Shown here piece by piece: positions 3,859-6,733 of a stretch of DNA of 41,386 bases. Location: positions 238,612 through 279,997 of the forward strand of contig JAFXUI010000001.1 of NCBI GenBank assembly GCA_017535105.1, written 5' to 3'. Position 1 is the stretch's first letter. Each line of letters opens with the position of its first letter. The DNA comes from Alphaproteobacteria bacterium. GTDB lineage: Bacteria; Pseudomonadota; Alphaproteobacteria; Rs-D84. A program made the translations under genes and the position numbers. The notes under the pieces are model-generated. The model did no database searches and was not told the DNA's origin. It saw nothing but the letters and a program-made list of their open reading frames with translations.

Positions 3859-5487
3859 ATGATGAAGACGATGAAAATATTGTTTGTATGCGTTATGGGG
3901 GTCGCGGTGTTGACCGGGTGCGCACGAAAGGAATCGGCCAAAGTTGCGGCGTCGGTCGATCAAGATTTCGTGAATGCATATGACGCGTTCGAGATGTCTA
4001 AAAATCCACGTGCCAAGGTTGCCAGTGGCGATACGGTTTCTATGTCTGATGGTGTATGGTTGGGTAATAAATCTTTGGTGCCAGAACACAAGAATAATTT
4101 GCCGTCAAAATTCGAAACGGATTCTGGGGTTACAATATTATTAAATGAACCAGTGACATTACAAGTCTTGGCAAATGATATAAACGCTGTTACTGGGTTG
4201 CCGGTGAAAATCGACAGCCAGGTCAGTTCTGAAAAACTGAAAAAGACAATGAATATCGCATATACCGGAAAATTGTCCGGCCTGTTGTCCCAGGTTGCAA
4301 CAGATTTAGATTTGTTGTGGTACTATGACAAAACATCAATTGTATTCTATGAAACAGAAACTCGTACATTTGCATTGTATGCTCTGGGGACCGAGGTTTC
4401 GTATCAAACCGCAATGAATACAGATGATGGTAACCAGGTTTCATTGGAATCTACATTAAAAGAATGGGACGAAGTTGAAAGTGCAATTTCCGCCATTGTC
4501 GGTAAAAGCAGTAATGCCGACTTTACCGTATCGCGCAGTTTGGGAACAATTACTGTGACGGCACCACCATCAATTTTGGCGCGTGTTGGTGATTATATCA
4601 ATCGTCAAAACAAACGTCTGTCGCAATTGGTGACAATTGACGTCAAAGTGTTACAGGTGTCTATTTCTAATGATTCCGCATTTGGTCTGAATTTGGCCGC
4701 GGCGATAAACTCAACGTCTGGATTGAATATCGTTGCAAATCCAAAGAACAATTTGGCCACTACCGAAGCAAGTTCAATGAATATCGCGGTGTTGTCTAAT
4801 ACGGTATCGGCATTGTCGGGTGCAACACACACCGTCAATGGTTCCGAAGTTGCTGGCGCATACACACAAAACGATATTATGAATGGTTCGTTGGCAAGTG
4901 TTGCGGGAACAAATGCGCTGGTTCAATCATTGGCAAAGCAGGGTAAAGTATCGTTGGTTACCAATGTTGGTGTGACAACCCGTAATAACCGTGTTGCGCC
5001 TGTGAATAACACACGTACAACCGGGTATATCAAACGGTTTGAATCTCGTAACTTTACAACAGTCGAATCGTCAACGGTTGACCAAGATGATTTGGAAACA
5101 GGTTTTTCAATGCAGTTGTTACCGAACGTTTTGGAAAACGGCAAGATATTGTTGTTGTTCAGAATGTCTGTACGTGAATTGTTAAAGATGTCAACCCAGA
5201 CAATTGGCGAAGTCACATTACAGTTGCCAGAGGTTGAAGAACGTAGTTTCATGCAAGAAGTAATTATGGAATCAGGTCAGATGTTGGTTGTTTCTGGATT
5301 TGAAAAACAGAATAACAGTGATACCCGTTATGGTTTGGGTGATCCGGACTTTATGGCATTGTCTGGTTCGCGTGAAACGGCAGCGCAACGTGATGTTTTG
5401 GTTGTTATCTTAACACCACAAGTTTTGATAAGCCCGATGGATTCTGAACGTACGATTCAGCAACATTGGGGTGCACCATTGAATTAA
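3859..5487 (+). CDS. pilN: PilN-family type IVb pilus secretin lipoprotein
   Basis: A 542-residue outer-membrane secretin that forms the pilus exit pore. It has a lipoprotein signal with lipobox LTGC (Cys21), an N-terminal STN-like region (VTLQVLANDINAVTGLPVKI, about residues 98-118) and an N-domain with TVTAPPSILARVGDYINRQ (about 232-250). The C-terminal secretin beta-domain includes LEERSFMQEVIM-like residues and GQMLVVSGFEKQNNSDTRYG. The match is to R64 PilN/TcpC/BfpB secretins rather than PilQ. The start is the first of two adjacent ATGs, with AGGAG 9 bases upstream. It is co-transcribed with the TcpQ-like gene and closed by a terminator. No assembly ATPase or platform gene lies beside it. 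Confidence 0.88.
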   Translation: MMKTMKILFVCVMGVAVLTGCARKESAKVAASVDQDFVNAYDAFEMSKNPRAKVASGDTVSMSDGVWLGNKSLVPEHKNNLPSKFETDSGVTILLNEPVTLQVLANDINAVTGLPVKIDSQVSSEKLKKTMNIAYTGKLSGLLSQVATDLDLLWYYDKTSIVFYETETRTFALYALGTEVSYQTAMNTDDGNQVSLESTLKEWDEVESAISAIVGKSSNADFTVSRSLGTITVTAPPSILARVGDYINRQNKRLSQLVTIDVKVLQVSISNDSAFGLNLAAAINSTSGLNIVANPKNNLATTEASSMNIAVLSNTVSALSGATHTVNGSEVAGAYTQNDIMNGSLASVAGTNALVQSLAKQGKVSLVTNVGVTTRNNRVAPVNNTRTTGYIKRFESRNFTTVESSTVDQDDLETGFSMQLLPNVLENGKILLLFRMSVRELLKMSTQTIGEVTLQLPEVEERSFMQEVIMESGQMLVVSGFEKQNNSDTRYGLGDPDFMALSGSRETAAQRDVLVVILTPQVLISPMDSERTIQQHWGAPLN

Positions 5488-5514
5488 TCAAAAAATAATT
5501 TTTAATATTTTTAA

Positions 5515-5543
5515 AATTCCGCAGAAATGCGGGATTTTTTTTA
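5515..5543 (+). terminator. terminator of the pilus gene pair
   Basis: Stem AATTCCGCA / TGCGGGATT (one G-U pair) with loop GAAA, followed by eight T (5535-5542), 28 bases after the pilN stop. Confidence 0.88.
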
Positions 5544-5681
5544 TAAAAAAGTGCTTTACATACATAACAGATTTTTACTAACCTTATTTGTAAGGATAGG
5601 ATTGAAACCGAATTCATGCGGCCGCGTGGATACGGTAGAGAGACAGGAGAAGGAATCACAAAAAACTGGCACTTTTTTATA
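5541..5681. ncRNA. candidate structured RNA with closing stem and two hairpins
   Basis: This gene-free stretch folds on paper into one closed structure. P1 pairs 5542-5554 with 5669-5681 (13 perfect pairs). P2 pairs 5568-5576 with 5660-5668 (3 bp, an A-A mismatch, 5 bp) after a 13-base bulge. P3 is a hairpin 5578-5599 (3 bp, A-A mismatch, 5 bp, loop TTTG). P4 is a hairpin 5607-5636 (ACCG, A-A mismatch, 8 bp with two G-U pairs, loop GGCC). A purine-rich strand (5637-5659) containing AGGAGAAGG remains unpaired. It does not match a riboswitch or ribozyme that I recognise. It could be an sRNA, a leader of the surface-protein gene at 5814, or a short inverted-repeat element. The strand is not proven; the G-U pairs fit the plus strand. 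Confidence 0.5.
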
Positions 5682-5813
5682 GTTTGATGACATCGAATTT
5701 TAATTACTTAAAGTTCGGTTTTTGTCGTTATCTTAAGGAATCCGGTTTTTTGCGTAAAATATTTGTTTCTTGGACGCAAGAAATAAATAAGGTTGAAAGC
5801 GATAAAGATATAT

Positions 5814-6389
5814 ATGAAACCGGTTCGTATAATCTTGATATGTTTAATATGTGGGCTTGTTTCCACCGCGCGCGCTGACATCGCCAGTGTGCAATACGTT
5901 CAATCAATTGTTTCATCGTTAACACCGCATCAGGCTGACTGGTCGCAAAGCGATTCGACAGCTGATGATTACATTAAAAACAAACCAACCATACCAACGG
6001 TTGGTGAAGGTGTGTTAACTATCCAGAAAAATGGAACAGATGTTGATACGTTTTCTGCTAATGCTACAACGAATACAACAATAAATATAACTGTGCCGAC
6101 AACCGCTGCGGACGTTGGGGCCGTGCCCACAACAACAACGGTTAATGGTCACGCTTTGTCATCAGATGTTTCGGTGACAAAAAGTGATGTCGGACTTGGG
6201 AATGTCGCAAATGTTGATACGACGAACGCCACAAACATTACCAGTGGCACCTTGGACGTTGCGCGCTTGCCAGTTGGCGCGACATCGTCTACGGTTGCTG
6301 CTGGTAATGATTTGCGGTTTGATACGGTATCGACAACTCAGCCATCTGGAACACCGCCAACGGGAACGGTGTTTATATGGTTCAACTAA
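5814..6389 (+). CDS. secreted surface protein with phage tail-fibre-like motifs
   Basis: A 191-residue protein with a signal peptide (MKPVRIILICLICGLVSTARA). The mature part is low-complexity and Thr/Val-rich. It holds QADWSQSDSTADDYIKNKP and DVGLGNVANVDTTNATN, both typical of bacteriophage tail-fibre and collagen-like adhesin shafts, then SGTLDVARLP and a TFIW-like end (GTVFIWFN). No phage genes surround it, so it is more likely a host surface protein built from such segments. The ATG at 5814 is chosen because it places the signal peptide at the N-terminus; a TTG 21 bases earlier is possible. The ribosome site is weak. It is related in style to the large protein at 40026. Confidence 0.7.
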   Translation: MKPVRIILICLICGLVSTARADIASVQYVQSIVSSLTPHQADWSQSDSTADDYIKNKPTIPTVGEGVLTIQKNGTDVDTFSANATTNTTINITVPTTAADVGAVPTTTTVNGHALSSDVSVTKSDVGLGNVANVDTTNATNITSGTLDVARLPVGATSSTVAAGNDLRFDTVSTTQPSGTPPTGTVFIWFN

Positions 6390-6472: not shown

Positions 6473-6733
6473 TTATGCCATTTTTGCAACTTTCTTGGTC
6501 AATCTGGAAATCTTGCGGGCAGCGCGTTTTTTCGGCATAACCTTGCCAGCAGATTTCATCAACTTGCTTTCTGCGGCGCGTGTTGCAGCAACTGCAGACG
6601 CTTTATCCCCAGATTCGATAGCCTTGATTGCCTTTTTGGTTGCTGTCTTAACCGCACTGCGACGCGCAGTATTTACAGCATTTTTCTTTTCTGTTACCAA
6701 AACTCTTTTTTTAGATGACTTATGATTTGCCAC
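6473..6733 (-). CDS. rpsT: 30S ribosomal protein S20
   Basis: An 86-residue basic protein (MANHKSSKKR start, repeated Lys/Ala-rich helices, TKKAIKAIESGD in the middle), the full length of bacterial S20. It binds 16S rRNA early in small-subunit assembly. An AAGGAAAA ribosome site precedes the start. It is a single-gene unit that ends at the GC hairpin 27 bases downstream. Confidence 0.97.
   Translation of the reverse strand: MANHKSSKKRVLVTEKKNAVNTARRSAVKTATKKAIKAIESGDKASAVAATRAAESKLMKSAGKVMPKKRAARKISRLTKKVAKMA

Follow-up and report, generated by a model that had tools for sequence, protein, structure and literature searches.

In the E. coli tisB mRNA, translation involves ribosome standby, with an unpaired site ~100 nt upstream, a 5′ structure and a sequestered ribosome-binding site (PMC7708055). 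Shine-Dalgarno (SD) sequences without a start codon are known in another role, as stabilisers of mRNAs such as ermC, cryIIIA and ompA (PMC3997798, PMC7509114). Leaders of the Stab-SD type have been described in bacteria that lack RNase E (PMC3997798), and the stability of the ompA mRNA depends on a strong SD, even when no start codon is present (PMC7509114).

The predicted leader analyzed here resembles that of tisB in having a 5′ structure, a putative unpaired docking region far upstream (166–176 nt, compared with ~100 nt in tisB) and a start region that may be closed. The two are not homologous, however: tisB is a type I toxin, while the gene served here encodes a surface protein, and the docking site proposed here is SD-like. 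With the Stab-SD leaders of cryIIIA and ermC, our leader shares an SD that has no start codon, but here the motif is flanked by two conserved hairpins, and the start codon may be closed. Like the E. coli ompA 5′ UTR, to which it is not homologous, it is the structured leader of a surface-protein mRNA. In ompA, the SD in question adjoins the start codon, whereas the one considered here is located far upstream.

The locus and its relatives

The window (the whole stretch of 41,386 nt of alphaproteobacterial DNA that was analyzed, to which all coordinates refer) carries the leader between a PilN-like secretin gene (3859–5487, with a match to PF00263 and a TIGR02520 score under the cut-off of that model) and the surface-protein gene (Table 1). 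The latter retrieved no family in Pfam or NCBIfam searches, and its matches in PHROGs are to tail proteins (best, 3.5e-7). Beyond it, there are a minus-strand gene that reads like ribosomal protein S20 (6473–6733) and a plsY-like gene.

Table 1. Features of the leader and of its immediate surroundings (window coordinates).
Feature	Position	Strand	Basis
Intrinsic terminator of the secretin operon	5513..5538	+	Terminator scan; upstream boundary, outside the leader
-35 box TTTACA	5555..5560	+	Invariant in four orthologues; TTTACT in G021
-10 box TAACCT	5579..5584	+	Weak in the window; alignment of relatives
AAGGATAGGATT, conserved segment ~8 nt past the -10 box; predicted transcript start and free 5′ end	5592..5603	+	77.8% mean identity
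Hairpin H1	5607..5636	+	34.8% identity, every counted pair kept
Purine-rich AGGAGAAGGAATCA, SD-like; proposed ribosome docking site	5645..5658	+	Conserved; predicted unpaired in most folds
Long hairpin H2	5659..5752	+	Predicted independently in four leaders and by RNAalifold; outer stem 5659–5669 with 5742–5752
Hairpin H3 with invariant loop region UUGGACGCAA	5761..5788	+	Separate folds and RNAalifold; two pairs changed on both sides
Hairpin H4, enclosing the AUG (5814–5816)	5805..5836	+	92.9% identity; register shift and compensating base
Gene served by the leader; secreted protein with phage-tail-fibre-like segments	5814..6389	+	Signal peptide predicted; PHROGs tail matches

The initial annotation had drawn a three-way-junction RNA element at 5541–5681, composed of four stems, P1 to P4. 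When 115 genomes of the genus were searched with a covariance model of this structure, a single convincing match was obtained (38.2 bits), located on contig CAMOCR010000011.1 of an uncultured alphaproteobacterium (G138, identical to L082). The gene order in G138 is a TcpQ-like gene, the secretin gene, the element, the surface gene, the S20-like gene on the minus strand and the plsY-like gene. Another relative, G111, was found by reading downstream of the secretin gene in other genomes, and G151 was found by searching with the surface protein; a second covariance model, built on the window and G138 copies, scored G111 at 47.9 bits genus-wide and G151 at 24 bits in an unfiltered search. The leader adjoins the same genes in G111 and G151, and the order of secretin gene, element and surface-protein gene is common to all four species, as is the terminator hairpin CCGCAGAAATGCGG. 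A fifth relative, G021, keeps the promoter, AGGAGAGGACAUC and a long hairpin and is devoid of H1 and H3.

No convincing copy was found elsewhere when the genome collection and IMG/VR were scanned for the pattern AAGGATAGGATT-N30-60-AGGAGAAG; out of 22 genome and 3 viral matches, only the one in G138 was real. A second match in the window's own genome (17 bases, C2:123554) is inside a protein-coding region and was ascribed to chance. Weak covariance matches in G108, G033, G012, G142 and G018 corresponded largely to a dispersed palindrome of the genus, which is distinct from the element, and those in G193 and at G111:C10 to promoters of other genes. A blastn search over 99 relatives, with the terminator included in the query, was swamped by this common terminator. 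Rfam (release 15) gave no family at the gathering score, in line with the initial annotation, and nothing convincing at relaxed thresholds, the best sub-threshold matches falling mostly on the upstream terminator. A literature search on small RNAs of gut alphaproteobacteria under the order name RF32, which was a guess, found nothing. The leader has so far been found only in this genus and belongs to no Rfam family, although structured leaders in general are a familiar type of element.

Conserved structure of the leader

As judged from the aligned sequences, the conserved unit is a structured leader of ~220 nt that extends from a predicted promoter to the start codon of the surface gene. The leaders of the window, G138, G111 and G151, when folded separately, each give a free 5′ end, H1, an unpaired AGGAGA, H2 and H3 (z-scores of −4.9, −4.8, −4.1 and −3.0, respectively), and RNAalifold recovers H1, H2 and H3 unguided. 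With H4 included, the structure has 41 pairs, and 96.9% of the alignment cells of the four sequences pair, compared with 44–55% when the partners are slid. Changes on both sides were seen at 8 pairs and in 14 cells, against shuffled means of 4.0 and 4.8. None of 300 column shuffles reached the consensus energy, though this control is lenient because runs of A and T get broken up.

Much of the primary sequence differs between the species (27.9% identity in the spacer and 49.8% in the interior of H2). H1 is the P4 stem of the initial annotation (ACCG-A-AUUCAUGC:GCGUGGAU-A-CGGU in the window), and five of its seven counted pairs have changed on both sides; the covariation that had been sought in homologues is thus present in P4, while P1 and P3 are not kept. 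H2, whose outer stem joins CAAAAAACUGG (5659) to CCGGUUUUUUG (5742) in the window, rests on few covarying pairs (one of eight counted). The lack of H1 and H3 in G021 means that both are dispensable there. A sequence within H1, GAATTCATGCGGCCGC (5609–5624), consists of an EcoRI site joined to a NotI site and resembles a cloning linker; since the pairing of H1 persists in relatives with other sequence, the resemblance is likely due to chance.

A leader of the surface-protein gene had been among the roles first suggested for the element, and it is supported by synteny, the shared promoter and a conserved structure that reaches the start codon and extends beyond it. A cis-acting structured leader of the gene at 5814 is, on this comparative evidence, very probable, with the reservation that there are only four orthologues, one of them divergent.

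Predicted promoter and transcript start

The leader has its own predicted promoter, with the pattern TTTACA-N18-TAnnnT conserved in the window, G138, G111 and G151. The -10 boxes of the relatives read TACGAT, TAAAAT, TAGAGT and TACACT, always at a spacing of 18 nt from the -35 box. The window -10 box matches at just three of six positions, which explains why a consensus scan missed this promoter. Given a promoter at 5555–5584, transcription should start near 5592. A similar layout is also present before other genes of the genus.

The element had initially been cut wrongly: 5541–5591 correspond to the promoter and its flank, and the conserved RNA structure extends to ~5836. The conserved 5′ end GGAUAGG (5592–5600) is complementary to the early codons CCGGUUC (5818–5828), and RNAalifold closes the leader there; with almost no variation on either strand, covariation offers no evidence for or against this pairing.

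The AGGAGA motif and the start codon

The purine-rich strand that had been noted as unpaired contains AGGAGAAGG, a sequence that is conserved and, in the predictions, mostly unpaired; in the long fold of the window, AGGAGA is partly paired at its first three bases. The motif is located between H1 and H2, and its duplex with the anti-SD has a predicted energy of −5.9 to −10.6 kcal/mol in five species. No ATG, GTG or TTG is present at a working distance from it in the aligned orthologues. A small upstream open reading frame following AGGAGA was rejected, as inspection of the alignment by eye showed that the orthologues have neither a start codon nor a frame in common. The anti-SD was searched for in the window's own genome and not found, probably because the assembly has no 16S gene; relatives with an assembled 16S gene (9 of 40) carry the usual anti-SD.

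H4 would pair the AUG with a segment that lies a few codons further downstream in the gene, and the first codons show almost no synonymous change across the four species. In the window, a two-base insertion before the AUG and a change of an Ile codon from ATT to ATA jointly re-form H4 in a new register, and in G021, GAG:CUC replaces GAA:UUC. The AUG is predicted to be paired in the window, G111 and G151 and mostly paired in G021; in G138, a competing fold would leave its U and G mostly open. By energy, H4 ranks fifth among 33 window genes, which is not unusual for the window. In the four orthologues, the local SD is weak, at −1.1 to −2.7 kcal/mol; G021 has a strong local SD-like stretch. An RNA thermometer was also considered and rejected, as H4 alone is predicted to remain closed from 20 to 45 degrees.

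A proposed standby model

Since the predicted leader resembles that of tisB in three parts important for standby (an unpaired site far upstream, a structure at the 5′ end and a start region that may be closed), we prefer standby as the explanation of its architecture. Transcription from the promoter at 5555–5584 would start near 5592, and the mRNA would fold into H1, H2 and H3, with the AUG enclosed in H4. With the help of the 5′ hairpin, the 30S subunit would bind to the unpaired AGGAGA 166–176 nt upstream and, once docked, could capture the locked start codon, whose own SD is very weak. Taken as a whole, a leader that works through ribosome standby is the best explanation of the locus, with a probability of roughly 0.45; if a cis-acting structured leader is granted, the chances of standby are about even. 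The more specific proposal, that in small-genome gut alphaproteobacteria a chromosomal surface-protein mRNA is translated by long-range standby via a start-less SD ~170 nt upstream, located between covarying hairpins and serving a hairpin-locked start codon, is put forward tentatively, as less likely than not.

Several observations speak against this explanation as a whole. H4 is nearly invariant and its energy unremarkable, and a competing fold is predicted in G138. G021 does without H1 and H3 and has its strong local SD-like stretch. In the window, the -10 box is poor and the first bases of AGGAGA are partly paired. If standby is true, long-distance standby would extend beyond type I toxin mRNAs, and the locus would be a natural non-toxin case in which docking and start opening are ~170 nt and two hairpins apart. 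Even without standby, the leader is conserved and had not been described before, and it probably governs the expression of a variable surface protein encoded beside the pilus secretin in uncultured gut bacteria.

Alternative readings

The leader may instead be a stabiliser of the Stab-SD or ompA type, with a 30S subunit bound at the start-less AGGAGA and the hairpins shielding the mRNA from nucleases and no ribosomes being fed to the AUG. A structured leader with a strong but start-less SD is what such a stabiliser would look like, and the loss of H1 and H3 in G021 is accounted for; left unexplained are the marked weakness of the local SD and the conservation of H4 at the AUG. In addition, protection of the ompA type usually goes with a free 5′ end that is short; here, this end would comprise ~14 nt. 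We consider this reading a close rival of standby, although a less probable one. Standby and Stab-SD have the docking of 30S at AGGAGA in common and differ in the later step, and sequence alone does not separate them. Control of the leader by CsrA is unlikely, as PF02599 had no match in the window's own genome and none over the cut-off in 30 relatives, the controls being positive.

A passive, fast-evolving leader, whose hairpins do no more than keep gene and promoter apart, would fit the low identity of the spacer and of the H2 interior and the absence of two hairpins in G021. It is improbable, given that H1 stays paired at an identity of 34.8% and that conservation extends to AGGAGA and to the loop of H3.

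An independent small RNA, transcribed from the same promoter and terminated ahead of the surface gene, is quite improbable as well. Although the promoter, the strong structure and the purine-rich free strand would suit it, the conserved structure continues to and across the AUG, and the same gene is always adjacent. A trans-acting small RNA was further assessed by its 3′ terminator: the consensus scan found no intrinsic terminator at 5592–5814, only the one upstream of the promoter.

The reading of the element as a three-way junction, or as a small mobile inverted-repeat element, delimited by the 13-bp repeat is very unlikely. P1 and P3 are missing in the relatives. The 5′ arms of P1, P2 and P3 are located within the conserved promoter or upstream of it, and a transcript from this promoter could therefore not form the junction. 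The own genome has a single copy, and only syntenic orthologues are convincing across the genus.

Stems of the initial annotation

What favoured that reading was the perfect 13-bp inverted repeat P1, which we confirm (5542–5554 with 5669–5681), and the low energy of the fold. The plus strand folds at −35.7 kcal/mol (z-score of −5.75, matched by none of 200 shuffles), and the minus strand has a z-score of −3.43. The exact structure first drawn is suboptimal, at −33.8 kcal/mol compared with a minimum of −35.5 (1.7 kcal/mol higher). A 13-bp repeat also arose in 14 of 2000 shuffles (0.7%) of the AT-rich intergenic region, and ~0.4 are expected across the whole window; P1 by itself is therefore weak evidence.

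All four stems can be drawn in the window sequence, but only P4 is conserved in the relatives. The single A-A mismatch ascribed to each of P2 (CAG-A-UUUUU:AAAAA-A-CUG), P3 (CUA-A-CCUUA:UAAGG-A-UAG) and P4 is present in the window and is not kept, being U-U in G138. In the three syntenic relatives, P1 is absent (at best 8–9 pairs, of unrelated sequences), and P3 has not been retained at its position. P2 competes with an alternative pairing, GAUUUUU:AGGAAUC, and its 3′ arm pairs with a downstream partner instead, in the outer stem of H2. A mobile element should be present in several copies with common ends; a search for these revealed, in the own genome, one copy, and its ends are not conserved. 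Three of the four stems thus vanish when relatives are compared, and the fold of one genome can mislead.

Variable genes and repeats downstream of the secretin gene

The surface-protein gene at 5814 is fast-changing. The slot that follows the secretin gene (5814–6389 in the window and its equivalents in the genus) contains tail-fibre-like genes, other surface genes, repeats or nothing, and the fact that this cargo is very unlike between species suggests rapid gene turnover at the site.

A palindrome akin to ATGCCGAATcTAAACGGtGGTTTAgATTCGGCAT is dispersed in the genus (L067, L068, L070, L128, L129, L132, L133 and L134). It also occurs after the secretin gene in L055–L060; often, two half copies flank the surface-gene leader there and could form a long hairpin. 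A second repeated hairpin, found after the secretin gene in L041, L046, L049, L051, L061, L062 and L063, combines variable GC-rich stems with a conserved CTCATGTAGCGTTTGTACACTACG-like core and may be a mobile element.
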